Assembly: GCA_022823775.1 (NCBI GenBank) | Contig: JAJEHI010000143.1 | Location: 1-40,372, forward strand | Direction of reading: 5' to 3' | DNA: 40,372 nt | Source: Defluviicoccus sp. | GTDB lineage: Bacteria; Pseudomonadota; Alphaproteobacteria; MPNO01 | Shown: positions 9,831 to 28,419 of the stretch, in pieces | How the letters are laid out: each line of letters opens with the position of its first letter | Numbering within the stretch: position 1 is the stretch's first letter | Made by a program: the position numbers and the translations under genes | Notes under the pieces: generated by a model | Told to the model about the DNA's origin: nothing | Database searches by the model: none | Seen by the model: only the letters and a program-made list of their open reading frames with translations

Positions 9831-11276
9831 TCACGCGTCGTCGAGCCGGTAGGCGAGGCGTTTCGGGACCTCGAACTCCGGCAGTCCGGCCTTGCGCCAG
9901 CTGTCGAGCGCCTTCTCCATCAGCGGCCGCGCGGGAAGCGACAGCTCGCCCGCGTCGATGCTGCGGGTCGCGTCGACGACGATCTTGCTCCCGGGGTCGG
10001 TGTTTCCCCCGCGCACCCGCACCGAAGGGTCCATGTACATCGGCACGAACACGTTATCGATCAGCACGGTATCGCGCGCCGGGTCGAAATGGGCGTTCAT
10101 TGCCCAATCGAGATGGAGCGGGTCCCGGATGTCGACATTGCTGTCAACGACGGTAACCCGCTTGACCGGCGCGATGGCGGCGACGATCCGCCCGATCCGC
10201 TGCGCGTCGCCGGCGACGCGCGGGCGCATCGCCACGATCGCATGCGCCAGCAGTCCGCCGAAGGTGAGGTCGATATGGACGTCGTCCACGCCGCGCTCGC
10301 CGAGGTCGTGGCGCAGCACCTTGCGCAGCGCGCCCGCGTTGGTGAGGCTCTGCATCAGCGTACTCTCGCTCGGCGGTATCTGGCTGGCGATGCCGTAATA
10401 GATCGGGTCCCGGCGGTGGGTAATCGCGGTGACCCGCACCACCGGCCGGTCGGACACCGGCCCCATATAGCCGGCGAACTCGCCGAACGGCCCCTCCTTC
10501 GCCACCTCGCCCGGGTAGACCAGACCCTCGATCACGATTTCCGAGCGGGCCGGCACGTCGAGCTCGACGGTCCGCGCGCGCACCGTCTCCACCGGCGCCT
10601 CCTTGAGGCCGCCGGCGAGCGCCGCCTCGTCGACGCCGATGGGAAAGTTGGTGACCGACGCGAAGTAGACGGCGGGCTCGGCGCCGATGACGAACGCGAT
10701 GGGCGCCGGCCGGCCGAGCTTGTGATGGCTCTCGCAGCAAAGCCGCCCCTGCCGTCCGGGCGAGAGGTTGCACACCAGCCGGTCGCGGCCGGTAACGAGG
10801 GTCCGGTAGACGCCGTGGTTCTGGACCCCGGTATCGGCGTCGCTCGTGACGACGATCGTGGTGATGTAACGCCCGGCGTCCTTGCCCGGCGTCCAGACCG
10901 GGATCGGCAGCAGGCCGAGATCGGCCGCGGCGCCCTCCTGCACGATTTCCTGGCAGGGCGCGCTTTCGGTCGGCGCCGGCGCCACCGGGTTGCGAAGCGC
11001 GCGCTCCCACCTGGCGTTGATGTCCTCCGGCGCGACGCCGAGCGCGGTGGCATAAGCCTCGGTCGAGGCGCCCAGCGCGCCGGTCGCCGCCGGGATGCCG
11101 CTGCCCGCGACGGACTCGAAGAACAACCCGAAGCGCCGGTCCTCCGGCAGGCTCTGGAACGCCCACTTGACCAGACAGCCGATCTCCCATTCCGGATCGA
11201 CGGTTTCCCGCACCCGGCGCAACAGGCCGCGCTGTTCCAGCACGGCGAGATACTCCCTGAGATCGTCGAAGGCCAT
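9831..11276 (-). CDS. UbiD-family prenylated-FMN (de)carboxylase
   Basis: A 481-residue protein of full UbiD length. It starts 'FDDLREYLAVLEQRGLLRRV', the usual N-terminus of the family. The central region contains 'EGPFGEFAGYMG', with the Glu/Arg network residues around the prenyl-FMN site, and 'SQIPPSE'. The C-terminus contains 'RVTVVDSNVDIRDP'. The family reversibly decarboxylates aromatic or unsaturated acids and needs prenyl-FMN made by UbiX, which is not in the window. Next to aromatic oxygenase genes it more likely serves aromatic degradation than ubiquinone synthesis. A palindromic repeat lies upstream. Confidence 0.92.
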   Translation of the reverse strand: MAFDDLREYLAVLEQRGLLRRVRETVDPEWEIGCLVKWAFQSLPEDRRFGLFFESVAGSGIPAATGALGASTEAYATALGVAPEDINARWERALRNPVAPAPTESAPCQEIVQEGAAADLGLLPIPVWTPGKDAGRYITTIVVTSDADTGVQNHGVYRTLVTGRDRLVCNLSPGRQGRLCCESHHKLGRPAPIAFVIGAEPAVYFASVTNFPIGVDEAALAGGLKEAPVETVRARTVELDVPARSEIVIEGLVYPGEVAKEGPFGEFAGYMGPVSDRPVVRVTAITHRRDPIYYGIASQIPPSESTLMQSLTNAGALRKVLRHDLGERGVDDVHIDLTFGGLLAHAIVAMRPRVAGDAQRIGRIVAAIAPVKRVTVVDSNVDIRDPLHLDWAMNAHFDPARDTVLIDNVFVPMYMDPSVRVRGGNTDPGSKIVVDATRSIDAGELSLPARPLMEKALDSWRKAGLPEFEVPKRLAYRLDDA

Positions 11277-14654: not shown

Positions 14655-14831
14655 CGCCGATCGCACCTCCATAGGCGTGGAATCCGCGACTGCCCGCAAC
14701 AGCCGCGTCGGCAAGCTTAGGGGCTGGGGCATCGGGGTGCCACCCCGCGGGCGGGCGCGGCGGCTGGCAATGACCGGCGATCGCTGGATATAGTCGAACC
14801 GACGGAATAGCCGATGCGGGGGGAACCGGCC

Positions 14832-16133
14832 ATGGCGGCACTGGACGATCGGGCTCTGCGCGGCCTCGTCGAATCCGATCGGGTGCACCGCGACTTCTAT
14901 ACCAGCCCCGCAGTCTTCGAGCTCGAGATGGAGCGCATCTTCGGCCGCGCCTGGCTGATCGTGGGCCATGCCAGCCAGGTGCCGGAGCCGGGCGATTTCG
15001 TCACCGCGACGCTCTGCCGCCACCCGGTGATCATGAGCCGGCACGCCGACGGCGAAGTCCACCTGATGTTCAACCGCTGCGCCCATCGCGGCGCCCAGGT
15101 CTGCACCGAACCGAGGGGCAACGCGCGCCGCTTCGAGTGCCCCTATCACGGCTGGGTGTACGAAACCGACGGCAGGCACGCGGGCGCGCCCTACCCCAAA
15201 CGCTACGCCAGCGGCTTCCTCAAGGGCGGGGAGTTCGATCTCGCCAAGGTGCCGCGCATGGCGGTCTATCGCGGCTTCGTGTTCGGCTGTCTGAGCGCCG
15301 ACGGACCCGGTCTCGACGAATTTCTCGGCCCCATGAAATCCCACATCGACGCCATGGTCGACCGCGCGCCGGACGGCGAGGTGGAAGCCTGCGCCGGCAC
15401 GTTCCGCTACCGCTTCGGGGCCAACTGGAAGATCCAGATGGAGAACCAGAACGACCTCTACCATCCGATGTTCACCCACGCCTCCACCACCGCGCGGGAC
15501 GGCACCCAGTTCCGGCGGCACGGGGCGGAGGACGACGAGGCGGGCCGGGTCAGGCTGCTGAAGGAGAACGAGGCGCTCAACGAGCAGTGGGAGGAGCTTG
15601 CGATCGGCGGGCACCGCTACGGACATACCTATATGGAGAGGTTCCCCATGGACAGGGGCCAGAGCGGCCCGGTCCACGAGCGCTACCGCGCGGCGATGGA
15701 AGCGAGCTACGGCGAGCGCGCCGCCGAGGCCATGGCGGTGAAGCACCACAACAGCATCTTCTACCCGCAATGGTCGATCCAGTACCTGACCCAGCACATC
15801 CGGGTGATGAATCCGGTCTCCGTCGACTGCACCGAGAACGTCATCATCCCCCTCAAGCTCAAGGGCGCGCCGGAGGAGATGTGGCGGGCGGCGCTCCGCA
15901 GCAACAACAACAGCCATTCGCCGTCCGGCATGGTCATGTCGGACGACATGGAGGTCTGGATCCGTTGCCAGAGGGGCCTTGCGAGTCCCGGACGGGAGTG
16001 GGTGGTCTTCGCCCGCGGCATGAACGAGGAGCGCATCGACAACGCCGGGTCCTTCGAGGGGCGCGGCACGTCCGAGGCGAACGCCCGGCACCAGCACGCG
16101 GCGTGGCTCGACTATATGTGCGGCGAGGCCTGA
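14832..16133 (+). CDS. Rieske aromatic-ring hydroxylase alpha subunit (NagG-like)
   Basis: A 433-residue alpha subunit. Rieske ligands are in 'NRCAHRGAQ' and 'CPYHGW'. The mononuclear iron region is 'ENQNDLYHPMFTH', with bridging Asp and two His, and 'NWKIQMEN' precedes it as in multi-subunit dioxygenases. ATG 14832 follows GGGGGGAA and is preferred to an in-frame ATG at 14814. The beta subunit follows 15 bp later. With gentisate dioxygenase on the opposite strand, salicylate 5-hydroxylase (NagGH type) is the most likely activity. Anthranilate-type or benzoate-type substrates remain possible. Ferredoxin and reductase must come from elsewhere. Confidence 0.85.
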   Translation: MAALDDRALRGLVESDRVHRDFYTSPAVFELEMERIFGRAWLIVGHASQVPEPGDFVTATLCRHPVIMSRHADGEVHLMFNRCAHRGAQVCTEPRGNARRFECPYHGWVYETDGRHAGAPYPKRYASGFLKGGEFDLAKVPRMAVYRGFVFGCLSADGPGLDEFLGPMKSHIDAMVDRAPDGEVEACAGTFRYRFGANWKIQMENQNDLYHPMFTHASTTARDGTQFRRHGAEDDEAGRVRLLKENEALNEQWEELAIGGHRYGHTYMERFPMDRGQSGPVHERYRAAMEASYGERAAEAMAVKHHNSIFYPQWSIQYLTQHIRVMNPVSVDCTENVIIPLKLKGAPEEMWRAALRSNNNSHSPSGMVMSDDMEVWIRCQRGLASPGREWVVFARGMNEERIDNAGSFEGRGTSEANARHQHAAWLDYMCGEA

Positions 16134-16148
16134 CGGCGGTCCATTGCG

Positions 16149-16622
16149 ATGCGGGCCGAGATCGAACGATTCCTCTATCTGGAAGCGCGCCTGCTCGACG
16201 AGCGCCGGTTCGAGGAGTGGATGAATCTGTTCGCCGAGGACGGCTGGTACTGGGTGCCGGCCGCACCCGACCAGAAAGACCCCTATGACGGCGTGTCGAT
16301 CTTCTTCGACGACCGCAGGATCATGAAGACCCGCCTGGAACGCCTCGATCATCCCCGGATCCACTCGCAGAAGCCGGCGAGCCGCACCATGCACGCCCTG
16401 TCGAACATCGAAATCGACGAGGAACACGGCGAGGAAGGCGAGGTGCTGGTGCGGTCCAACCTGACGATGTTCGAATTCCGCCTCGACAAGCAGACCGTGT
16501 ATGGCGGGCGTTGCCGCCACTCGCTGCGCATCCGGGACGGCGGCGGTTTCGAGATCGCCTGGAAGCGCGTCGACCTCGTCAACTGCGACGGTGTATTCGA
16601 GACCCTGTCGGTGCCGTTCTAG
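16149..16622 (+). CDS. ring-hydroxylating dioxygenase beta subunit (NagH-like)
   Basis: A 157-residue SnoaL-fold subunit. 'FLYLEARLLDERRFEEWMNLF' then 'DGWYWVPA' is the standard start of dioxygenase beta subunits, and it closes with 'YGGRCRHSLRI...WKRVDLVNCD', also conserved. It is the structural partner of the alpha subunit directly upstream, in an alpha3beta3-type oxygenase. No redox centre is expected. The gap of 15 bp indicates one transcript. It is clearly a better match to standard beta subunits than the lone gene at 170-649. Confidence 0.88.
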   Translation: MRAEIERFLYLEARLLDERRFEEWMNLFAEDGWYWVPAAPDQKDPYDGVSIFFDDRRIMKTRLERLDHPRIHSQKPASRTMHALSNIEIDEEHGEEGEVLVRSNLTMFEFRLDKQTVYGGRCRHSLRIRDGGGFEIAWKRVDLVNCDGVFETLSVPF

Positions 16623-16977: not shown

Positions 16978-18135
16978 ATGACTTCGGGATCGAACATACC
17001 GGCGGGCTCGCCGCCGCCCGTTTTCGTTACCGGCTCGGCCGGTCATGTCGGCGCCAATCTGGTGCGCAGGCTGCTCGACGACGGTGTCCGTGTGCGGGTG
17101 CTGTTGCGGCACGAGGACAACAACGAGGGGCTGGAAGGCCTCGACGTCGAACGCTCCTACGCCGACATAAGGGACCTGGACGCCACCAGACAGGCGGTTG
17201 CGGGTTGCCGGGGCGTCTATCACGTCGCGGCCCGGATCTCGACCATCGAAGGCAACCGCGCGCACCGCCGAAACGTGTTCGAGTGCAATGTCCTCGGCAC
17301 CCGTAACGTGTTGCAGGCGGCGCGGGAGGCGGAGGCCGGCCGGGTTGTGGTTACGGGCTCTTTCAGCGCCGTCGGTTACGACCTCGACGATCCGTCGGCT
17401 CCCAGCGACGAAACGATGCCGTTCTTTCCGATGGAACGCACGATGCCCTACGAGCGCAGCAAGTCGCTCGTCGAGCAGGAGTGCTGGCGCGCCGCGGCGA
17501 CGGGACAGGACGTTCTCGTCGCAACCTGTTGTGCCGTGGTCGGAGGGGCGGATTATTTCCCCTCGCGGCTGGGAAGAACGTTGTGCGATTACACCAACGG
17601 CAAGCTTCGCGCCTATGTCGACGGAGGTTTCGAATTCGTCGCCGCGCGCGACATCGTCGAAGGGCATTTGTTGTGCATGCGGCACGGCCGTTCGGGCGAA
17701 AAGTACATCTTCAGCAGCGAATACAAGACGATCTCCGAGATCCTGGACCTGTTCGAGGAGGTCTCGGGCGTCCCGCGGCCGCGCCGGCGGATGCCGACCC
17801 GCGCGATGCTGGTCTTTTCGGAGGTGGCGAGCTTCTACCTGAGCCGGTTCCACCCTGACTTTCCGCAGCGCTTTACCCCCGGCGCCATCCGCCTGCTGCA
17901 AAAGCGACGACACGCCGACACCGGCAAGGCGAAGCGCGAGCTCGGCTATCGCCCGACCGGCATCCGCGACGCGGTCTATGAGGCGTACGAATTTCACTAC
18001 CGCCGCAACGCGATTACCAATCCGGCCGCGAACCGCCCGCGCGCGGACGCCGCGAAACCGCGTACCGCGACGCAAGCGGGAAATCCCGTGCCGGACGGAG
18101 GCATTCGGATGACTCCCGACGGGAGCGCGACATGA
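16978..18135 (+). CDS. 3beta-HSD/NSDHL-like NAD(P)-dependent dehydrogenase, sterol C-4 demethylation candidate (SdmB-like role)
   Basis: A 385-residue extended SDR. The nucleotide-binding motif is 'VTGSAGHVGANL' (about 17-28) and the active site is 'PYERSK' (Tyr-x-x-x-Lys). The pattern resembles the 3beta-hydroxysteroid dehydrogenase branch, which includes eukaryotic NSDHL (C-4 carboxysterol decarboxylase) and also HpnA-like hopanoid-locus proteins. The C-terminal about 45 residues are Pro/Ala-rich and probably disordered. Its stop overlaps the next start (ATGA), so it is translated together with the Rieske oxygenase. In a sterol operon, oxidation at C-3 with decarboxylation at C-4 is the likely job; this is inferred from context. 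Confidence 0.75.
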   Translation: MTSGSNIPAGSPPPVFVTGSAGHVGANLVRRLLDDGVRVRVLLRHEDNNEGLEGLDVERSYADIRDLDATRQAVAGCRGVYHVAARISTIEGNRAHRRNVFECNVLGTRNVLQAAREAEAGRVVVTGSFSAVGYDLDDPSAPSDETMPFFPMERTMPYERSKSLVEQECWRAAATGQDVLVATCCAVVGGADYFPSRLGRTLCDYTNGKLRAYVDGGFEFVAARDIVEGHLLCMRHGRSGEKYIFSSEYKTISEILDLFEEVSGVPRPRRRMPTRAMLVFSEVASFYLSRFHPDFPQRFTPGAIRLLQKRRHADTGKAKRELGYRPTGIRDAVYEAYEFHYRRNAITNPAANRPRADAAKPRTATQAGNPVPDGGIRMTPDGSAT

Positions 18136-19229
18136 GGCCGGCAACCGGTTCACCGCCCGCCTTCGAAGACGCGGGGACCCTGCGCCAGCAAGCGCGCGCC
18201 GCGGGGATGGATCCGAATTACTGGTACGCGGTCGAGGAGGTGCGCCGGGTCAAGCCGGGGACGGTGATCGAGGTCGTTTTCTGGAAACACTCCATCGCGC
18301 TGTTCCGGGGAGCGGACGGCGCGTTCCAGGCGATCGAGAACCGCTGCGCGCATCGCCAGCTAAAGCTCTCGATCGGCGACGTGCAGGGCTGCCGGCTGGT
18401 ATGCGCCTATCACGGTTGGGAGTATGGCGGGAAAGGGCGCCCCGCCGGGGTCCCGTACGACCGCGAGGGCACGAGCTTCCCGCGGCTCGCGCTCAAGACC
18501 TATCCGGTCAAAATCCGGTACGGCCTGATCTGGCTCTTCCCCGGGGACCCGGAGCGGGCGGAGAAGCGCCCGATCCCCGATATCCCCGAGCTGGAGGGGT
18601 CCGGGCGGTGGGCCTGCGTGCCGCTATGCTTTACCTGGTCGGCTCACCACTCGATGGTGATCGACAATGTGAGCGACTTCACCCACGCTCATTTGCACCG
18701 CCGATACCGGCCCTTCGACGGCGCCACCCTCACCCGTTGCGAGACCGTCGGCGACGACGTGCATCTCGCATACGACACGCGTGTCGGGCGCGGGCGCGTG
18801 TCGGGGCGGTTCGTCGATCACAAGCGGGTCGACACCAACCGCATGGAGCTTTGCTACCAATACCCTTACCAGTGGTCGAACACCGACGACGCGATAAAGC
18901 ACTGGCTGTTCGTGCTGCCGGTCGACGAGCGCACCACCCGGGTGTTTTTCCTGTTCTACTTCAAGTCGCTGAAGATTCCCTTCCTGCCGGTGCATATCCC
19001 GCGTTTCGCGATGACGGCGGTCATGAAAATCTCCAACCGTCTCCTCATCGCCCCCCTGCTCTCCCAGGACCGGTTCGCGCTCGAAGCGGAGCAGTCGGGC
19101 TACGAGAGACATTGGGACGCGCGTCCGGTCGAGTTCAACCCGGTGGTGCAGGCCTTTCAGAAAGTGACCGTGCGCAAGTGGCGAGAGTATCTGGCCGGCG
19201 CGGCGGAGGACGCCGATGTCCACGCCTGA
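18132..19229 (+). CDS. Rieske oxygenase, sterol C-4 demethylase candidate (SdmA-like)
   Basis: A 365-residue single-component-type Rieske oxygenase. The cluster ligands are 'CAHRQ' and 'CAYHGW', and the mononuclear iron region is 'IDNVSDFTHAHLH'. The C-terminal 'PFLPVHIPRFAMTAVM' is hydrophobic and may touch the membrane, fitting a lipid substrate. In methanotrophs that make sterols, a Rieske protein and a dehydrogenase replace the eukaryotic C-4 methyl oxidase system. The same pair, coupled by ATGA and followed by other sterol genes, suggests the same task here. It overlaps the C-14 reductase gene by 14 bp. A cholesterol-7-desaturase-like (DAF-36 type) activity is the main alternative. Confidence 0.75.
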   Translation: MRPATGSPPAFEDAGTLRQQARAAGMDPNYWYAVEEVRRVKPGTVIEVVFWKHSIALFRGADGAFQAIENRCAHRQLKLSIGDVQGCRLVCAYHGWEYGGKGRPAGVPYDREGTSFPRLALKTYPVKIRYGLIWLFPGDPERAEKRPIPDIPELEGSGRWACVPLCFTWSAHHSMVIDNVSDFTHAHLHRRYRPFDGATLTRCETVGDDVHLAYDTRVGRGRVSGRFVDHKRVDTNRMELCYQYPYQWSNTDDAIKHWLFVLPVDERTTRVFFLFYFKSLKIPFLPVHIPRFAMTAVMKISNRLLIAPLLSQDRFALEAEQSGYERHWDARPVEFNPVVQAFQKVTVRKWREYLAGAAEDADVHA

Positions 19230-20316
19230 ACCCTACTCGCTGGTTGCCGCGCTGTCGGGCGGAACGGTGCTGCAGGCGGCGGCGATGCTGCTCGGGTTTA
19301 TCGCGCTGTTGTTCGTGGGCTCGGCGCTTCTGCCCGGTCGCCGGGTGACGGGGCCCGACGCCGAGGGGAACCGGCGCGTCTACAAGCTGAACGGCCTCGC
19401 CCTCTTCCTGATCGTCGCCGTGGCGGCGGGTCTCGGTCAGATGTCGGGCATGGTCTCCCTTTCCGTGCTGCACACGCATTTTCTCGCCCTGTTCGTCGTG
19501 GCCAACGGGTTTGCCTTCGCCCTCGCCGGCTGGCTGTTTTTCCGTGGCGCGCGGGCCCGCGAGGAATCGCAGGTCTCGTGGCGGAAATTCTTCATGGGCG
19601 TGGAAGCCGGCCCGACATGGTTCGGGCTGGACCTGAAACTCTTCAGCTACTGCCCCTCGCTTATCGGCCTCGCGCTGTTCAACGCATCCTTTGCCGCCGT
19701 GCAGTACGAAACTTACGGCGGGCTGACCCTCGGGATGGCGCTCTACCAGATCTTCGCGTTCCTGTACGTGCTCAACTATTTCCAGTTCGAACAGGGGATG
19801 ATCCATACTTGGGACATCGTCAGCGAGCGCTTCGGATGGAACCTGGTCTGGGGCGATTTTGTGCTGGTGCCGTTTTTCTACTGCCTCCCGGGCTGGTGGC
19901 TGGTGCACGCTCCGGAAACGGTGTCGCCCGCCGCCGCCGCCGCGATCGTCCTGCTGTTCCTGTTCGGCTTCTGGCTATTCCGCGGCGCCAACCAGCAAAA
20001 GCACCGTTTCAAGCGCGATCCCGACATCGAGATCTGGGGCAAACCGGCCCGGACCCTGGACGGCCGCCTTCTGGTCTCGGGTTTCTGGGGCATCGGACGG
20101 CATCTCAACTATACCGGCGAGATCTGCATCTACCTGTCTTTCGCCCTGACCGCTGGGCTCGCGTCCTGGTTCCCCTTCCTGTTGCCGGCGTGGCTGGCGG
20201 GCCTCTTGTGGCACCGCTCGCGCCGCGATGAGCGCCGGTGCCGGGCCAAGTACGGCGCGTTGTGGGACCGCTACACGAAGACGGCGCGTTTTTCGATGCT
20301 GCCGTTTGTCCATTGA
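19216..20316 (+). CDS. sterol C-14 reductase (ERG24/LBR/DHCR7 family)
   Basis: A 366-residue polytopic membrane protein with roughly nine to ten hydrophobic segments. The family signature 'SGFWGIGRHLNYTGE' (about residues 288-302) is present, followed by 'HRSRRDERRCRAKYG' and 'WDRYTK...MLPFVH' at the C-terminus, which form the NADPH and sterol-reducing part. The reaction reduces the C-14 double bond left after CYP51 removes the 14alpha-methyl group. CYP51 is the next gene, 8 bp downstream, so both halves of C-14 demethylation are adjacent. C-7 or C-24 reductase activity is possible within the same family, but the CYP51 neighbour favours C-14. Confidence 0.9.
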   Translation: MSTPEPYSLVAALSGGTVLQAAAMLLGFIALLFVGSALLPGRRVTGPDAEGNRRVYKLNGLALFLIVAVAAGLGQMSGMVSLSVLHTHFLALFVVANGFAFALAGWLFFRGARAREESQVSWRKFFMGVEAGPTWFGLDLKLFSYCPSLIGLALFNASFAAVQYETYGGLTLGMALYQIFAFLYVLNYFQFEQGMIHTWDIVSERFGWNLVWGDFVLVPFFYCLPGWWLVHAPETVSPAAAAAIVLLFLFGFWLFRGANQQKHRFKRDPDIEIWGKPARTLDGRLLVSGFWGIGRHLNYTGEICIYLSFALTAGLASWFPFLLPAWLAGLLWHRSRRDERRCRAKYGALWDRYTKTARFSMLPFVH

Positions 20317-20324
20317 GGGCGGGG

Positions 20325-21734
20325 ATGGCGAACCGGAGTCACAGCGCGGCCACCCTGCCTTCGGCGGAACTCCCGCGCCGCGCGGAAACGGCCGTCCCCG
20401 CGCTCTCGGGCGGGTGGCCGCTGCTGGGCAACCTGCCGGAATTCCAGAGGGATCCGGTCGCGATGTTGAGCCGCGGCTGGCAGGAGCATGGCGAGCTCTA
20501 CCGCTTCCGGCTGGGCCCCCGCGACTTCGTTCTCTTCACCGGACCCGAGGCTCACGACTTTTATTTCAGGGCCCCGGAGGACCGGCTGAACGCCCAGCCG
20601 GTCTACCGGTTCACGGTCCCCATCTTCGGGCGCGGCGTAGCCTACGACGCCTCGCCCGAGATCATGGCGGAGCAGCTGGGCTTCCTGTTCCCCGCCCTCC
20701 GCGAGGCCGCCATGCGCAAGTTCGCCCTCATCATGTTCGACGAGACGAAACGGTTCGCCGAGGCCCTCGGCGCGGACGGGGAAATCGATCTGCCGCACGC
20801 GATGAACGAGCTCACCGTCAAGATCGCCAGCCGCTGCCTGATCGGACAGGAAGTCCGGGACCGGGTGGATACCGGTTTCGCCGAGGCCTACCACGAACTG
20901 CAGAACGGCATTAACACGCTGGGGTTTTTCCTCCCAAGACTTCCCACCGCGGCCCATCGAAGGCGCGACAGGGCGCGGCGGAGGGTGGCCCAGCTCTTCG
21001 GCGGGATCATGGCGGAGCGCCGGCGGTCCGGAGCCGAGCCGGACGATTTCATGCAGACGCTCATGCAGGCCCGTTACAAGGACGGCCGCGCGCTCGGCGA
21101 CGACGAGATCACCGGGATCCTGCTGACGGTGCTGTTCGCGGGCCAGCACACCAGCGCGGTGCTCGCGACCTGGACCGGCCTGGAGCTCCTCGGGGCGCCC
21201 TCCTATCTAGCGCGCGTAAGGGACGAGGCGGAGGAGGTCTACCGCGAGGCGGGCGCCATGAACCTCGAAAGCCTCCAGCAACAGGCGCTGCTGGACCGCG
21301 CGGTGCGCGAATGCGAGCGGCTGCACCCGCCGCTGATATTGCTGATCCGCAAGGTGCTCAAGCCCCTGCGCTACGGCGGCCGTCTGGTGCCTGCCGGCAC
21401 CATGGCCATGGTGTCGCCGGCGGTCTCTCACCGGTTGCCCCATCTGTTCGCCGACCCGGAGCGGTTCTTTCCGGACCGCTTCGCCCCGCCGGCGTGCGAG
21501 GACAAGCAACACCACTACGCCCTGATCGGCTTCGGCGGCGGCAAGCATGCCTGCATGGGCAAGCATTTTGCCTACCAGCAGCTCAAGGCGATCTGGACCG
21601 TGTTGCTGGATCGGTTCGAGTTCTTTCTCGATGGCGGGTTTCCCCGGCCGAATTACGGAAGCTGGGTAACCGGCCCCGAAACGCCGTGCCGGGTCCGCTA
21701 CCGCCGCCGCTCCGAGCCGAGCGTCTTCCGATGA
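20325..21734 (+). CDS. cyp51: cytochrome P450 CYP51, sterol 14alpha-demethylase
   Basis: A 469-residue P450. The B-prime/BC-loop signature of CYP51 is clear: 'YRFTVPIFGRGVAYD' (94-108). The I-helix has 'GQHTSAV' from residue 273, again specific to CYP51. ExxR is in 'ECERLHPP', and the haem loop is 'FGGGKHACMG' with Cys410. It oxidatively removes the 14alpha-methyl group of lanosterol-type sterols. ATG 20325 follows GAGGGCGGGG and leaves an N-terminus of about 30 residues before the conserved 'GGWPLLGNLPEF', without an obvious membrane anchor. The redox partner is not encoded nearby. The stop overlaps the next start by ATGA. Confidence 0.95.
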   Translation: MANRSHSAATLPSAELPRRAETAVPALSGGWPLLGNLPEFQRDPVAMLSRGWQEHGELYRFRLGPRDFVLFTGPEAHDFYFRAPEDRLNAQPVYRFTVPIFGRGVAYDASPEIMAEQLGFLFPALREAAMRKFALIMFDETKRFAEALGADGEIDLPHAMNELTVKIASRCLIGQEVRDRVDTGFAEAYHELQNGINTLGFFLPRLPTAAHRRRDRARRRVAQLFGGIMAERRRSGAEPDDFMQTLMQARYKDGRALGDDEITGILLTVLFAGQHTSAVLATWTGLELLGAPSYLARVRDEAEEVYREAGAMNLESLQQQALLDRAVRECERLHPPLILLIRKVLKPLRYGGRLVPAGTMAMVSPAVSHRLPHLFADPERFFPDRFAPPACEDKQHHYALIGFGGGKHACMGKHFAYQQLKAIWTVLLDRFEFFLDGGFPRPNYGSWVTGPETPCRVRYRRRSEPSVFR

Positions 21735-24700
21735 GCGGCGGCGTATCGGGCCGCTACGACGTAGCCGTGGTGGGCGCGGGCCCGGTGGGCAGCCTGTGCG
21801 CGCTCGCCCACGCGCGAAAAGGCGCCCGGGTGGCCCTCCTCGAGGCGAACCCCAAGGCGTCCGGACGGCTGGCGGGCGAATGGCTGCATCCGCCCGCCGT
21901 ACGGATATTGCGCGACATCGGGATCGAGGTCGACGCGTTGCCCCGAAGCAGCGAGGGCAAGGGGTTCGTGGTGTTTCCGGAAGACGGCTCGGAACCCATC
22001 GTCCTTCCCTATCTGGGCGAGTCCCTGGGTTTGGCATGCGATCACGCGGTGCTCGTCTCGAAGCTGCGCGAAGCCATCGAGAACGAGACGGGGGTCGACT
22101 TTATTCTCCGCGCGCGGGTGAACGGGGTCGAAGACGAGCGGCTTACATATGCCGTGAACGGGACCGATCGATTTCTGGGCGCCGCGCGGATTATCGGCGC
22201 CGACGGCCGGGCTTCGGTCGTGCGTCAATCGCTCGGCCTGTCGACCGACCCGATGCTCTGCTCGCGCATGCTCGGGATTACGTTGAACGATGTCGGCCTG
22301 CCGTTCGAGGGTTTCGGACATGTGCTGCTCGGCGGGCCGGGGCCGATCCTCGTATACGGTCTGGGGAACGGTTGCGTCCGGATCGTCGTCGACGTGCCGC
22401 TGGATCGCTGGTCGCCCCGGGATCGGGTGGGCTTTTTGTCGGAAGCCTATGCCGGCCTGTTGCCGGAGCCTCTCGGGCCCGCGTTCATGGCGGCGCTGCG
22501 GATGGGGAATTTCGACGCCGCGACCAATCGGCTGCGGCCGCGCGTTTCTTACGGGAACTCGCGCCGCGTGCTTATCGGGGACGCGGCGGGGCACTACCAC
22601 CCCATGACCGCCGTGGGTATGACCCTGGGATTCGGCGACGCGCTGGCGCTCGCCGAGGGCGGCGTATTTCGCGACTTCGTCGCCAGGCGGTTCCGTGCCA
22701 CCAGCAGCCCGGAGTTCCTCGCGATGGGACTCTACGAGGTCTTTGCCGATCACCGGGCGGAGGCGGTGGCGCTCCGACAGGCGATCTACCGGGGTTGGCG
22801 GTCGAATGCCTCGTACCGAAACCGGACCACGCGGATACTCGCCTGCGAGGACCGGTCCGCGGTCCAGCTCGGCCTTGCGTTCTGCTCGACGACGGTCCGG
22901 GCGGTCGCCCGGGGAATTCCACGATCCCATCGGTCGTTCCCTTCGCGCCAGACCCGCGACATCTTTCTCGCCCTCATCGTTCGTTTCTGGTGGCTCCTGC
23001 GCGCGGTTATGCAGCTGCACAGGGAGAAAGCCGCGGGTCGAGGACGGGACGAGCGGGCCCGCGACGCGCTGGCCCGCGCGTTTCTGAGCTCCATGTCGGG
23101 GGTCCGCGATCCACGGTGCGGCCGCCCGGGCGAGATGGAGTCGCCGGACGCCGGCCCCGCATCGAAGCGCGCGGCCGCCCGCCTGATGGATCTTCAGGGA
23201 AAGGACGGCGCCTGGGAAGGCGAGATGGTCTGGTGCCCCATGCTCACCGCCCAATATGTGCTTCTGCACCACATCGTCGGGCGGCCGCTCGACCGGGGCC
23301 GGCGCCGGCGCGTGCTGCGCTCCTTCGAACGGACCCGTCTCGAGGGCGGCACATGGGGATTGCACGAGCACTCCCCGCCTCACCTGTTCGTCACCGCCCT
23401 GGTCTACGTCGCGGCAAGACTGCTCGGCGTCGAGCGGGACGATCCCCTGGTCGCGCCGGCCGGGCGCTTCATCCGGGCCGAGGGAATTCTCGGCATCCCG
23501 AGCTGGGGAAAGTTCTGGCTGGCGCTCCTCAACCTCTACGACTGGCGCGGGGTGAACGCCGTTCTGCCGGAGCTCTGGAGCCTGCCGCGCCGGTTTCCGC
23601 TGCATCCGTCGAACTGGTACTGCCATACGAGGCTGATCTACATGGCGATGGCGGTGATTTACCCGCGCCGGTTCCAGGCGCACGTCACGCCCCCGATCGC
23701 CGCGCTGCGGGAGGAGCTGTTCCCGGACGGTTTCGCCGACGCCAATTTCTCCGCGGCCCGAAACCGCCTGCGGGACGCCGATCTCTACGCGCGGCCGAGC
23801 GTCTGGCTCAGGGCCGGCTTCGCGATTGCGCGGCTGTTCGAGCGGTTCCACGGCAAGCGATTGCGGGCGCGTTCCACGCAAGCGATCGTGCGCGGCATCA
23901 AGTGGGAGCTGCGGACCACCAGCCATACGAGCATCTCCCCGGTGAGCGGCCTCCTCAACATCCTGGCGTTGTGGCTGCACGATCCGAACGACGCGGACAT
24001 GCTCCGGGCGCTGGAGAAGCTGGACGGCTGGATCTGGGAAGACGAGGAACAGGGAGCCCGCGTCGTCGGCGCGAGAAGCGCCTCGTGGGATACCGGGTTC
24101 GCGCTGCAGGCTCTGGCGACGGTGCCCGGGCTCGACGGCGTCGGGGACGCCCTTCGGCGCGGCGCCGACTTTCTGCTCGGGGAACGGATCAACAAGAGCT
24201 TCGAGGGTTTTCGGGAGGCCTGTCGAACCGACCCCAAGGGGGGGTGGTGCTTTGCCGGGGGGTGGCACGGCTGGCCGGTGAGCGACTGCACCGCGGAAGC
24301 GGTGCTGGGGATCGTCGCCGCCCGGGGCGAGACCGCGGACACGGCGGCGCTGGCCGATGCGGTCGGGTTCATGCTGCGCGGCCAGAACCGCGACGGGGGC
24401 TTCGGCAGCTACGAGGCGCGGCGCTCGGCGTTCGGTCTGGAATGGCTGAATCCCGCCGAGATGTTCGGCGACTCGATGACCGAGCATTCCTTCGTGGAGT
24501 GCACCGCGTCCTGTCTCGCAGCGCTCGCACGATGCAGGGACAATTTTCCGACGGTCGCGGACCGGTCGGTGACGAGCGCCATCTCGCGGGGCGACGCCTG
24601 GCTTCGACGAACCCAGGCGAGCGACGGGTCGTGGCGCGGCGTTTGGGGCGTTCAGTTCATCTACGGCACGCTGTTCGGGATCAGGGGGCTTGTCGCCGCC

Positions 24701-25123
24701 GGGGCCCGTCCCGGGGATCCTGCGCTGCGTTCGGCCTGCCGCTGGCTGCTCGACCGTCAGCGCGACGACGGGGGGTGGGGCGAGCACCACAGCGGTTGCC
24801 TGACCGGCCGCTACGTTCCTCACCGGGAGAGTCAAATCGTCCAGACGGCGTGGGCGCTGATGGCGCTACTGGAGGCGGGCGAACCGGACTGGAGCGCGAT
24901 TTCCCGGGGCGCGCAATTCCTGCTGGATTCGCAGGACCCCGACGGGGGATGGCCCAAGCAGGACATGGCCGGCGTGTTCTTCCGAACGGCGCTGCTCGAC
25001 TACGTCCTCTACCGCCAGTATTTCCCGCTGCACGCGCTCGGCCTCTACGAGCGGCGGCGGCGGAATCGGCTGGATCTGACGGCCGCCGAAGCCGAAGCGG
25101 CACCCGCCTGTTCGATGTCTTGA
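21731..25123 (+). CDS. squalene epoxidase-oxidosqualene cyclase fusion protein
   Basis: One uninterrupted frame of 1,130 residues. Residues 1-450 are a squalene-monooxygenase-like flavoprotein: 'VVGAGPVGS' (13-21), 'GEWLHPPAVRILRDIG', 'IGADGRASVVRQ', and 'GDAAGHYHPMTAVGMT' around Asp284. After an Arg-rich linker (about 450-475), residues 475-1130 are an oxidosqualene cyclase: 'WYCHTR' (His632), the catalytic 'SDCTAE' with Asp852 rather than the DxDDT of squalene-hopene cyclase, 'VECT' with Cys924, 'GVWGVQFIYGT', and 'AGVF' with Phe1083. It would turn squalene into 2,3-oxidosqualene and then a tetracyclic sterol. His846 matches cycloartenol synthases, while Val850 matches lanosterol synthases. 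In-frame ATGs at 23093 and 23135 lack strong ribosome sites. Separate proteins are the usual arrangement; I know of no such fusion. Confidence 0.9.
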   Translation: MSGGVSGRYDVAVVGAGPVGSLCALAHARKGARVALLEANPKASGRLAGEWLHPPAVRILRDIGIEVDALPRSSEGKGFVVFPEDGSEPIVLPYLGESLGLACDHAVLVSKLREAIENETGVDFILRARVNGVEDERLTYAVNGTDRFLGAARIIGADGRASVVRQSLGLSTDPMLCSRMLGITLNDVGLPFEGFGHVLLGGPGPILVYGLGNGCVRIVVDVPLDRWSPRDRVGFLSEAYAGLLPEPLGPAFMAALRMGNFDAATNRLRPRVSYGNSRRVLIGDAAGHYHPMTAVGMTLGFGDALALAEGGVFRDFVARRFRATSSPEFLAMGLYEVFADHRAEAVALRQAIYRGWRSNASYRNRTTRILACEDRSAVQLGLAFCSTTVRAVARGIPRSHRSFPSRQTRDIFLALIVRFWWLLRAVMQLHREKAAGRGRDERARDALARAFLSSMSGVRDPRCGRPGEMESPDAGPASKRAAARLMDLQGKDGAWEGEMVWCPMLTAQYVLLHHIVGRPLDRGRRRRVLRSFERTRLEGGTWGLHEHSPPHLFVTALVYVAARLLGVERDDPLVAPAGRFIRAEGILGIPSWGKFWLALLNLYDWRGVNAVLPELWSLPRRFPLHPSNWYCHTRLIYMAMAVIYPRRFQAHVTPPIAALREELFPDGFADANFSAARNRLRDADLYARPSVWLRAGFAIARLFERFHGKRLRARSTQAIVRGIKWELRTTSHTSISPVSGLLNILALWLHDPNDADMLRALEKLDGWIWEDEEQGARVVGARSASWDTGFALQALATVPGLDGVGDALRRGADFLLGERINKSFEGFREACRTDPKGGWCFAGGWHGWPVSDCTAEAVLGIVAARGETADTAALADAVGFMLRGQNRDGGFGSYEARRSAFGLEWLNPAEMFGDSMTEHSFVECTASCLAALARCRDNFPTVADRSVTSAISRGDAWLRRTQASDGSWRGVWGVQFIYGTLFGIRGLVAAGARPGDPALRSACRWLLDRQRDDGGWGEHHSGCLTGRYVPHRESQIVQTAWALMALLEAGEPDWSAISRGAQFLLDSQDPDGGWPKQDMAGVFFRTALLDYVLYRQYFPLHALGLYERRRRNRLDLTAAEAEAAPACSMS

Positions 25124-25129
25124 GCGCGG

Positions 25130-26161
25130 TCAGCCTTCCGGGCGCGGGGGCTTGCGGGCCAGGAAGAAGAACATGGGCGTGAAAATACCGGACTTGCCGC
25201 CTTCGACCAGCGCGTCGGCCGCCGCATTCAACAGCGTGCTGACCGCGCGGGAACCCTCGGGAAACAATCGCAATCGCTCGCCGACCCGCAACGTCAGATT
25301 GGTCAAGGCCCGACCGAAAGGCGTGCGCGGAATGCTCGATGTGCTGAGGTCGCGGCCTTGCAAAGCCCGGTACCATGGCGTTTGCGGATCGGACTCCGTC
25401 GCGCGGTCCCGGGCGTCCAGGAACTCGAACCCGGCCCTGCGCAACGCAGCGCACACCTCCGACGTCGAGGCGATTTCGGGCAGCGCGTCCCCCACCATGA
25501 TGTCGTTCTTGATGCGCAGGTGCTCCGCGTTCCCGGGATCGAAATCGTCCGTCAGACACCACTCGTAGCCCGCGAAACAGGCGCCCGGACGCAAGACGCG
25601 ACAGATCTCCCGGAACGCCGCCGTCTTGTCCGGTGCGTGGGGCATGGATTCGATCGCGAAAGCGGCATCGTATCGCTCGTCCCCCTCCGGAATCCGCATG
25701 TAATCGCCGTGGATAAAGCGGCACAGCGATTCGACATCCCGGGTGTGCAGTTTCGCCCGCTCGATCTGGTAGGCGTTGTTGTTGATTCCGACGAAGCTGG
25801 CCCCGGAATGGCGCGCCAGGTTGCTCATCGGCCCCCCGACCCCGCACCCGACATCGAGGACCTGCATCCCGGGCTTCAGGGACAGCCGTTCGGCGAGATA
25901 ATGCTGGTGCCTGAGCAGCGACGCCTTGAAGCTCTCGCCCCGGCGCCGGGGGGCGAAGTGAAAGGACTGGCCCCAGCCGAACTCGTAGAAGTCGGTCACG
26001 AGGTCGTAGTAACGATTCACGAAGGACCGATAATGCTCCTTTCTGCCCTCCAGGCCCGCGTCGTAGATCGCGTTGTATCCGTCGACGGTGGACTTCACCT
26101 CGTCCGGGGAGAGGTCCGCGAGGGAACGGGAACTCGATCGTCTGGCGGCGGGCCGGGTCAT
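25130..26161 (-). CDS. sterol C-24 methyltransferase (SMT/ERG6 family)
   Basis: A 343-residue SAM methyltransferase. It shows the sterol-specific block 'YEFGWGQSFHF' (59-69), 'RHQHYLAERL', SAM motif I 'LDVGCGVGGP' (102-111) and 'GINNNAYQIERA' (125-136), followed by 'AIESMPHAP' where eukaryotic enzymes have AIEATCHAP. It would add a methyl group to the C-24 side chain of the sterol. It is convergent with the cyclase fusion gene (6 bp between stops) and divergent from the EBP-like gene. The frame is open for 28 more codons upstream; ATG 26161 is the likely start, although its ribosome site is weak. Confidence 0.92.
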   Translation of the reverse strand: MTRPAARRSSSRSLADLSPDEVKSTVDGYNAIYDAGLEGRKEHYRSFVNRYYDLVTDFYEFGWGQSFHFAPRRRGESFKASLLRHQHYLAERLSLKPGMQVLDVGCGVGGPMSNLARHSGASFVGINNNAYQIERAKLHTRDVESLCRFIHGDYMRIPEGDERYDAAFAIESMPHAPDKTAAFREICRVLRPGACFAGYEWCLTDDFDPGNAEHLRIKNDIMVGDALPEIASTSEVCAALRRAGFEFLDARDRATESDPQTPWYRALQGRDLSTSSIPRTPFGRALTNLTLRVGERLRLFPEGSRAVSTLLNAAADALVEGGKSGIFTPMFFFLARKPPRPEG

Positions 26162-26332
26162 CCGCCCATTGTGCCAGAGTCGAGGGGTGTCCCCTAGGCT
26201 GGAAACCCGACAATAGGAAACGACGCTTCGTTCCACTGCGTCCATAAGTATTGCCTGTCGCGCGCCGCACCGGCCCGTTCGAACTAATATGCCTTGCGGT
26301 GCAACGAATCATTTTCCACGAGGTCAGGACAA

Positions 26333-27046
26333 ATGCCCCAGCGCCGCGCCGACCAGGCGCATTCCGAAGCGGCAATTCCGGCGTGGCTGTTCACGATCCT
26401 GGTCATCGTGGTCCTGGCATCGGCGGGCGTCTTTGCGCGCTACTGGGCCCGCGGGGATTTCGATGTCGTTCACGCCCTCCTGATCTCGTTCTTTTCGATC
26501 AATCTGGCGATCTGCTACTGGGAAGTGTGCCTGTTCCTGAGGCGCGACCGTATCGAACTGCGCGCCGAATACTGGCGCGCCCGCCAGCTTGAGACGGGCC
26601 GGCCGGCGGCCGTCGAATTCCTCACCGCAAGGGTTCCGCTGCGACGGCTATTGTCGTCGACGGTGTGGGCCGAGGTCTGGGCGGCATATTCCCAGATCGA
26701 CGGTTCCTACGCGGATCGCCGCACTTACGGTTTCAACGTGGACATCGCCAACGGCTTCGTGACCCCGGTTCCGACACTGATCCTTTACGCCGCCTTTACC
26801 TTCGATTTCCTGCCCGCCGTCGTCGCCGGAATCGTCGGGGCGATGATGTTCTGGCAACTGACCTACGCGACGTCGGTCTACTGGGTCAGTTTCTTCGTGG
26901 CGAACCGGCAGGCCCGGATCCGCCCGCGCGACACGCTGGTCTACATCTGGGCGCTGAATTCCCCCTGGGTGCTGTTCGCGCTGCTGGGGCTCTGGGCCTC
27001 CGTTCGCCTGATCGTCGACGGGGACTACAGCGTCCTGGGCTATTGA
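26333..27046 (+). CDS. polytopic membrane protein, possible EBP/EXPERA-like sterol isomerase
   Basis: A 237-residue protein with about five membrane spans: roughly 17-36, 45-67, 138-157, 160-186 and 203-223. The ATG follows AGGTCAGGAC. The order of features recalls emopamil-binding protein (delta8-delta7 sterol isomerase): a Glu in helix 2 ('CYWEVCLF', Glu64), 'WAAYSQIDGSYADRR' comparable to the W-x-E-Y-x-x-x-D-S-R-Y stretch, and 'LNSPWVLFALLG' comparable to N-A-L-W in the last helices. The catalytic His of EBP four residues before the Glu is not conserved (Ile60). The assignment rests on weak resemblance plus location next to sterol genes. It could equally be an unrelated sterol-locus membrane protein. 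Confidence 0.45.
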   Translation: MPQRRADQAHSEAAIPAWLFTILVIVVLASAGVFARYWARGDFDVVHALLISFFSINLAICYWEVCLFLRRDRIELRAEYWRARQLETGRPAAVEFLTARVPLRRLLSSTVWAEVWAAYSQIDGSYADRRTYGFNVDIANGFVTPVPTLILYAAFTFDFLPAVVAGIVGAMMFWQLTYATSVYWVSFFVANRQARIRPRDTLVYIWALNSPWVLFALLGLWASVRLIVDGDYSVLGY

Positions 27047-27060
27047 CCGCGGCCTGCCGG

Positions 27061-28323
27061 TTACGCCGCCGCGGGGCGCGGACTCCGGGGGCCGATCCGG
27101 AAGATCGTAACGGCGAGGACGACGAGGTTGGCGAGGTTGAAGGCGACACCGAGCAGGAAGGCGCTGACGTAGGTTCCCGTCGCGTCGAACAGCACCCCGC
27201 CGATCCAGCTTCCGAACCCCATCGCAAGCGCGCCGAACAGGAACACCAGCCCGGTTCTGCGCCCCGCCTCGGTCACCGGCATCAGCTCGCGGATGGCCAC
27301 CGCATAGACCGGAAAGATGCCTCCGTAACCGAGCCCGAACAGGATCGCGACCACGTAGAGCTCCGCCAGCCCGTGGACCATGGTGAAGGCCGCGAGCATC
27401 GCCGCCTGGGTGCCGGAAAACAGGAACAGAGCGCGGAGTCCGCCGATATTGTCGGCCAGCAGGCCGACGAAAACCGCGCGGCTGACGAACGCCGACATCA
27501 GCATCAGCGACAGCACCTCCGCCGCGTTGCTCGCCGGATGGCCGAGGTCGGTGACGTAGGAGACGAGATGGCCGAGCGGCAGGCCCATCGCGACGCAGCA
27601 ACCGACGATCGCGGCGCAGAGCGCGGCTTGCAGGCCGCGTACGGAAATCGGCATGCTGGCGCGGGCGGCGGGACGGGCCTCCGGCGCGGATGGGGCGGAG
27701 CGCGTTCCGGGAGACCCCGCGGGAATCCCCGGCCGCCGCCTCAGCACGAGCGCGAGCGCTGGGAGGAACAGGGCGGCGACCGCGCCGAAGGCGAGCGCCA
27801 TCGTGCGCCATCCGTGCGCCTCCATGACGAGTACGAAAATCGGCGGCCACATGATGCCGGCCAACGCCTGACCGCCGGCCACGATGCCCACCGCCATCCC
27901 GCGGCGGCGGACGTACCAGCGCGCGATATTCGCCATCGCGGGGGCGGCGAGAGCGCCCGTCCCCAGGAATCCGATCAGCAGCCCGTAGATCGCGTAGAGC
28001 TGCCAGGCCGCGTCGAACTGGCTCAGCAGGATCGCGCCGCAGGGGATGGTGACCGAAGCGACCAGCGCGGGCGGCCCCATGCCGTAGCGGTCGAGCACCC
28101 GGCCCATGAAGAATCCGCCGAACCCCGCCCCGAGGAACTGGAGCGAGAAAGCGAGCGACGGAACCGCGCGGGGCCATGAAAACTCCGCCGCGATGGGCTT
28201 GAGCGCGACCACCACCAGGAACATCGCGCCCGAGCCGATGAGCAGCGTCAGCACCGAGGCGGCGAGCACGTAAATCTGGCCCGCCGGCTCCTGCCCGTTG
28301 GGATTGCTACCTGCCTCGGTCAT
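27061..28323 (-). CDS. MFS transporter (OFA/monocarboxylate-like)
   Basis: A 420-residue permease with about twelve membrane segments and a cytoplasmic loop rich in Pro, Ala and Arg in the middle (near 'RRRPGIPAGSPGTRSAPS'). 'GRVLDRYGMGPP' after helix 2 is the MFS loop 2-3 motif, and 'ARWYVRRRGMAVGIVAGG' is typical of the oxalate/formate antiporter and monocarboxylate-porter branch. It probably takes up or exports a carboxylic acid. ATG 28323 is chosen; a GTG 18 bp upstream is possible. It is convergent with the EBP-like gene with 14 bp between, so it is not part of the sterol operon. Confidence 0.88.
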   Translation of the reverse strand: MTEAGSNPNGQEPAGQIYVLAASVLTLLIGSGAMFLVVVALKPIAAEFSWPRAVPSLAFSLQFLGAGFGGFFMGRVLDRYGMGPPALVASVTIPCGAILLSQFDAAWQLYAIYGLLIGFLGTGALAAPAMANIARWYVRRRGMAVGIVAGGQALAGIMWPPIFVLVMEAHGWRTMALAFGAVAALFLPALALVLRRRPGIPAGSPGTRSAPSAPEARPAARASMPISVRGLQAALCAAIVGCCVAMGLPLGHLVSYVTDLGHPASNAAEVLSLMLMSAFVSRAVFVGLLADNIGGLRALFLFSGTQAAMLAAFTMVHGLAELYVVAILFGLGYGGIFPVYAVAIRELMPVTEAGRRTGLVFLFGALAMGFGSWIGGVLFDATGTYVSAFLLGVAFNLANLVVLAVTIFRIGPRSPRPAAA

Positions 28324-28419
28324 GGCCGACCCCCGCGGCACGGTAGAGCAAGGAGCCGCGGGAAGCGAGACACCCCGACCGCGGCAAGAAACGGCGCGGT
28401 TTCGAGCCTATGCCGCCGG

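Follow-up and report, generated by a model that had tools for sequence, protein, structure and literature searches.

A sterol C-24 methyltransferase gene in a sterol gene cluster of an uncultured Defluviicoccus and its predicted role in side-chain alkylation

We analyzed a stretch of DNA of 40,372 nucleotides (hereafter, the window), which is one whole contig (JAJEHI010000143.1) of the 4.8-Mb genome of the uncultured alphaproteobacterium Defluviicoccus sp. (GCA_022823775.1). Domain, structure-database and fold comparisons revealed a near-complete sterol gene cluster and an adjoining transporter gene, listed below with the evidence for each.

16978–18135, plus strand: 3beta-HSD/SDR protein, SdmB-like C-4 sterol demethylation protein ("DFR" of Kelly et al. 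2022); best NCBIfam match SdmB NF052578, 288 bits, below the cut-off of 600; Epimerase/3Beta_HSD.
18132–19229, plus strand: Rieske oxygenase, SdmA-like 4beta-methylsterol monooxygenase; best NCBIfam match SdmA NF052579, 410 bits, below the cut-off of 600; Rieske and VanA_C.
19216–20316, plus strand: ERG24-type sterol C-14 reductase; PF01222, 227.9 bits; PDB Delta(14)-sterol reductase 4quv, E 5.9e-67.
20328–21734, plus strand (start chosen inside ORF 20238–21734): CYP51, sterol 14alpha-demethylase; best PDB matches nearly all CYP51, E 8.7e-106.
21731–23092, plus strand: squalene epoxidase (SQE) part of a fused ORF; FAD_binding_3 and SE PF08491; PDB squalene monooxygenase 6c6n, E 3.2e-22; fold match to human SQLE, TMt 0.79.
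23093–25123, plus strand: oxidosqualene cyclase (OSC) part of the fused ORF, with the catalytic motif VSDCTAE; TIGR03463, 727 bits (below the cut-off of 851); TIGR01787, 502 bits (above the cut-off of 322.7); PDB lanosterol synthase 1w6k, E 1.8e-130.
25130–26161, minus strand: sterol C-24 methyltransferase (SMT/ERG6 family); PF08498, 77.8 bits; alignment, tree and dN/dS of about 0.1.
26333–27046, plus strand: EBP (EXPERA)-fold membrane protein, probable sterol delta8-delta7 isomerase; structure model and fold match.
27061–28341, minus strand: MFS transporter of doubtful pathway membership; MFS_1, 117 bits.

Among the matches listed, the MFS transporter gene adjoined the cluster only in the two loci from the same genus. 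Upstream of the cluster, at 14814–16622, the window also carries a ring-hydroxylating dioxygenase alpha subunit and a small beta-like subunit, which look like unrelated aromatic-degradation genes.

The SMT ORF encodes 343 amino acids from an ATG at 26161, and an alternative in-frame ATG upstream at 26245 would give 371 amino acids. Pfam comparison placed Sterol_MT_C (PF08498) at residues 279–338, against a cut-off of 21.7 bits, and Methyltransf_11 as the second domain. In the alignment, Region I (aromatic motif Y-E-x-G-W-G, as defined in PMC6997595) reads YEFGWG, with Y59 at the position of yeast Y81, the SAM motif is DVGCGVGGP, and the C-terminal part carries GIFTPMFFFLARKP and IFTPMFFFLARKP. 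The full set of SMT signatures described in the initial annotation was thus recovered, as was the convergent arrangement with the cyclase gene: the cyclase TGA lies at 25121–25123 and the SMT stop at 25130–25132, leaving 6 bp between them. Among the eukaryotic reference sequences, whose Y81 numbering agrees with PMC6997595, identity to the window protein was highest for Arabidopsis SMT1 (48%), followed by yeast Erg6 (40%) and Arabidopsis SMT2 (35%). The protein has the same domains and motifs as the eukaryotic SMT1/ERG6 proteins (Arabidopsis SMT1, yeast Erg6) and differs from them in being encoded by a bacterial gene inside a cluster. It was the only PF08498 match in its own genome.

To place the gene among its relatives, one genome per species from 84,980 bacterial and archaeal species was scanned for SMTs, and at least 80 loci were kept. 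Two genomes of the same genus carried the whole cluster, with SMTs 93% and 91% identical to that of the window. The dN/dS of the SMT was 0.086–0.12 against three relatives, and the gene is under purifying selection with an omega of about 0.1. Because the ORF recurs within the genus beside the same neighbours and shows these dN/dS values, it is not a chance reading frame.

A tree of 122 rows was computed by a quick method. The window SMT fell within a bacterial SMT clade of 80 rows, near myxobacterial SMTs, and two ordinary, non-SMT methyltransferases were separated at a support of 100. The yeast and plant SMTs joined other myxobacterial SMTs with moderate support. Some branches were weakly supported, and the tree program issued a long-branch warning, so that the deep joins are unsure. 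The nearest solved structures by sequence were natural-product methyltransferases such as MitM, as would be expected if the protein were a small-molecule methyltransferase of the tocopherol or natural-product type; the list of solved structures, however, held no good full-length SMT match as a competitor. Sterol_MT_C, Region I and the tree all put the window protein with SMTs. On the domain and the tree, among whose rows there was no tocopherol methyltransferase, we rejected a tocopherol-type or general small-molecule methyltransferase as highly improbable. The initial reading, that of an SMT in a sterol locus of a bacterium, was upheld by domain, tree and neighbouring sterol genes.

We further examined the residues that follow the AIE motif. 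E171 and H175 of the window SMT correspond to yeast E195 and H199 and are both kept, whereas A196-T197-C198 (yeast numbering) are replaced by S-M-P before the conserved H199. The initial annotation had singled out S-M-P-H as a change that may alter substrate or the number of methylations. The motif is present, but it turned out to be the commonest one of the SMT clade: most rows carry S-M-P-H, others A-T-P-H or similar, and Cys198 is Pro in most of the clade. S-M-P-H is therefore a clade feature, and we rejected the reading that it is peculiar to this bacterium. The myxobacterial SMT of locus L097 has A-T-C-H after AIE. Sterol_MT_C occurred in 12 of 284 genomes of Myxococcota, the phylum of L097; for the class to which the window belongs, the count was 11 of 385 genomes.

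The same lineages contain two more SMT-like groups, distinguished by ATCC-type motifs and an STCH motif, respectively. In locus L021, the SMT at 1162–2190 and the ORFs after it make up a tandem of three SMT genes, one resembling the window SMT and two belonging to the L015 (ATCC-type) group. L015 itself (9891–10901) has a lone ATIC-type SMT beside dnaA-, dnaN-, recF- and gyrB-like genes. In L017 (7381–13323), and also in L016 and L018, an STCH SMT-like gene has genes for a Rieske, a P450 and an FAD protein as neighbours, which may together make up a second sterol-modifying locus. In L014 (about 9966–10978), from another family of the same order, the SMT gene is broken by a frameshift at about residue 200, and its neighbour is a partial SDR gene.

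The gene at 26333–27046 encodes a 237-amino-acid membrane protein whose AlphaFold2 model had a pLDDT of 88.2. A fold search matched this model to human EBP with a Z of 16.0 and an rmsd of 2.8 over 183 residues, while the next match had a Z of 7.0; the human EBP structures 6oht and 8w0r gave a Z of 15–16 at 13% identity. The protein itself had no Pfam match, and of its 31 homologues three matched EBP PF05241, with E values no better than 0.084. The fold evidence for EBP identity is thus clear, and the hhalign and sequence-profile evidence is weak. In a by-eye register against human EBP, N209 and W212 fit, E122 corresponds to D137 and H76 to N57; the catalytic His of human EBP would accordingly be Asn in the window protein, and the His/Glu positions seem not all kept. 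By its fold the protein is a probable sterol delta8-delta7 isomerase, and the weak sequence evidence and the His-to-Asn change leave this activity a prediction. Homologues of this protein lay beside or near the SMT in about 30 loci among the matches listed. ERG2 and EBP are separate protein families.

The ORF at 21731–25123, of 1130 amino acids, encodes both squalene epoxidase and oxidosqualene cyclase. Among the matches listed, both parts stood in a single ORF with no stop between them in 53 of the 54 distinct loci that have both, across phyla, and we therefore rejected an assembly or frameshift artefact. In locus L022, the cyclase is cut short by a premature stop. The structure model of the fusion was of middling confidence (pLDDT 70.7). 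A literature search on the SQE-OSC fusion found nothing, but fused SMO/OSC homologues are named in the methods of Brown et al. 2023 (PMC10070321); the fusion is thus not a new discovery.

Taken in pathway order, these genes suggest the following route. Squalene would be epoxidised and cyclised by the single SQE-OSC polypeptide, CYP51 and the C14 reductase would take off the C-14 methyl group, the SdmA/SdmB-like proteins would work at C-4, and the EBP-fold protein would move the delta8 double bond to delta7. With S-adenosylmethionine as donor, the SMT would methylate the sterol at its delta24 double bond, so that C-24 is alkylated once or more. Enzyme activity, substrate, step order and methyl count are the parts of this route that we infer. 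We know of no sterol from such a bacterium. The best-supported function of the window SMT is side-chain alkylation: it is very probably a genuine bacterial sterol 24-C-methyltransferase whose delta24 sterol substrate is supplied by the neighbouring enzymes. Ergosterol- or sitosterol-type side chains, as the initial annotation proposed, stay an inference because the number of methylations is not readable from sequence.

The SMT might instead methylate the delta24 bond of a 4- or 14-methylated intermediate or of a non-lanosterol triterpenol made by this cyclase, in which case the product would not be of the ergostane or stigmastane type. The cyclase leaves a range of candidate products, with Val453 kept and Thr381 aligned with Ala in comparison with human lanosterol synthase; arborane triterpenols are described from bacterial cyclases, as cited in PMC9531527, and C-4 demethylation may be incomplete in the window pathway. 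The CYP51, C14 reductase, SdmA/B-like and EBP-fold genes nevertheless point to demethylated delta7-type sterols, and we regard such other substrates as unlikely.

Outside the window, the same genome contains squalene synthase-family genes and a squalene-hopene cyclase. On contig C173 (9358–15750), the squalene-hopene cyclase lies between two SQS_PSY genes; this is a hopanoid-type locus, and the bacterium may therefore produce hopanoids in addition to sterols. A second OSC-SQE-CYP51-C14 reductase-Rieske cluster, with 68–93% amino acid identity, lies at the end of contig C182 (L103, 8784–14987), and an SMT was not found with it on that contig end. It is either a real second copy or bin contamination (4.75%).

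The sterol cluster was whole or mostly whole in about 50 loci among the matches listed, commonly with the SMT facing the cyclase. Within the fetched flanks, some loci had an SMT without the rest of the cluster, e.g., L041 and L046–L049. Such loci would suit an SMT that modifies sterols of a host sponge or of the diet rather than serving de novo synthesis, as has been proposed for the chlamydial SMT; the idea of sterol uptake is discussed for Chlamydiae by Brown et al. 2023 (PMC10070321). The window SMT, in contrast, is accompanied by the cyclase and demethylation genes of a full cluster, in a genome with squalene synthase-family genes, and we consider its dependence on foreign sterols quite unlikely compared with de novo synthesis.

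Among the matches listed, the metagenome-assembled genomes (MAGs) with SMT loci were labelled Alpha- and Gammaproteobacteria, Nitrospira, Gemmatimonadetes, Binatota, Rhodothermales, Opitutales, Acidobacteria, Chloroflexi, Bacteroidetes, Myxococcota and others, and MAGs with the same cluster bore the labels of at least eight phyla, all labels being the submitters' own. Locus L098, an SMT with a cyclase piece on a 3.6-kb contig of a 0.7-Mb bin labelled Patescibacteria, is likely a binning error. The SMT and RpoB of the window genome were compared with those of five genomes of other classes or phyla that had full RpoB (it was fragmentary in two further genomes). SMT identity was 75–80% and RpoB identity 51–56%, whereas within the genus RpoB was 96% and SMT 93% identical. 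A higher identity of SMT than of RpoB across phyla, with the reverse within the genus, fits horizontal transfer and points to movement of the sterol cluster across phyla. The bin codes of the relatives, e.g., RHO, IRC, COS and CAR, are known from sponge studies. On these codes, the window bacterium probably lives in a marine sponge. Exchange of the cluster between phyla probably occurs within sponges.

The window SMT is not known to be among the enzymes that Brown et al. tested. In that study (Brown et al. 2023, PMC10070321), 20 of 24 bacterial SMTs alkylated sterols in vitro (8 of 10 from symbionts and 12 of 14 environmental), 4 of 24 were inactive on the two substrates used, and three reached the 24-isopropyl side chain. 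By description, the window shares with that work SMTs that lie in bacterial clusters with sdmA/sdmB, including those from demosponge metagenomes. Kelly et al. 2022 (PMC9531527) reported clusters of steroid genes (CSGs) in bacteria of Ircinia sponges from 11 classes and 10 phyla, with evidence for transfer and for purifying selection. The CSG definition, an ERG24-CYP51-LSS core flanked by DFR and a hypothetical gene, with SMT or FDFT1 on the opposite strand, fits the window and its relatives (PMC9531527). The gene order is also the same as in the Ircinia CSGs, with DFR, hypothetical, ERG24, CYP51 and LSS on one strand and SMT1/ERG6 at the 3' end on the other (PMC9531527). Three differences were seen from that report (PMC9531527): SdmA and SdmB are unannotated there, whereas SdmA/B-like genes were scored in the window; its text names no squalene epoxidase gene, whereas the LSS ORF of the window has an N-terminal SQE; and ERG2 is mentioned in several CSGs, whereas an EBP-fold gene was found here. 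The view that bacterial SMTs form a limited set, from which the initial annotation had started, is out of date in the light of these two studies.

Because of the CSGs of Kelly et al. and the active SMTs of Brown et al., the window locus belongs to a recently known kind; it is a good further example of the published bacterial SMT clusters and not a surprise. The EBP-fold neighbour and the family-wide SQE-OSC fusion are the most useful additions to the known picture. The consequence for biomarkers suggested at the outset was already published, since the biomarker meaning of bacterial SMTs is discussed by Brown et al. 2023 (PMC10070321). A far-reaching picture can be drawn, which we regard as speculative and, as a whole, rather doubtful. 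In it, a mobile and nearly complete pathway leading to delta7 sterols alkylated at C-24 would be shared by sponge bacteria from many phyla. The isomerase would be a divergent EBP-fold protein missed by annotation, the SMT would have an active site peculiar to its clade (C198 to P) and methylate more than once, and these bacteria would truly be a source of the 24-alkyl sterols that are ascribed to sponges. Steranes alkylated at C-24 are taken as fossils of eukaryotes, some of them as fossils of sponges. A whole bacterial cluster with an SMT, found in many lineages that are mostly apparently sponge-associated, strengthens the published warning about a bacterial contribution, to which this work adds a scored list of pathway genes, a candidate EBP-fold isomerase and the family-wide fusion.
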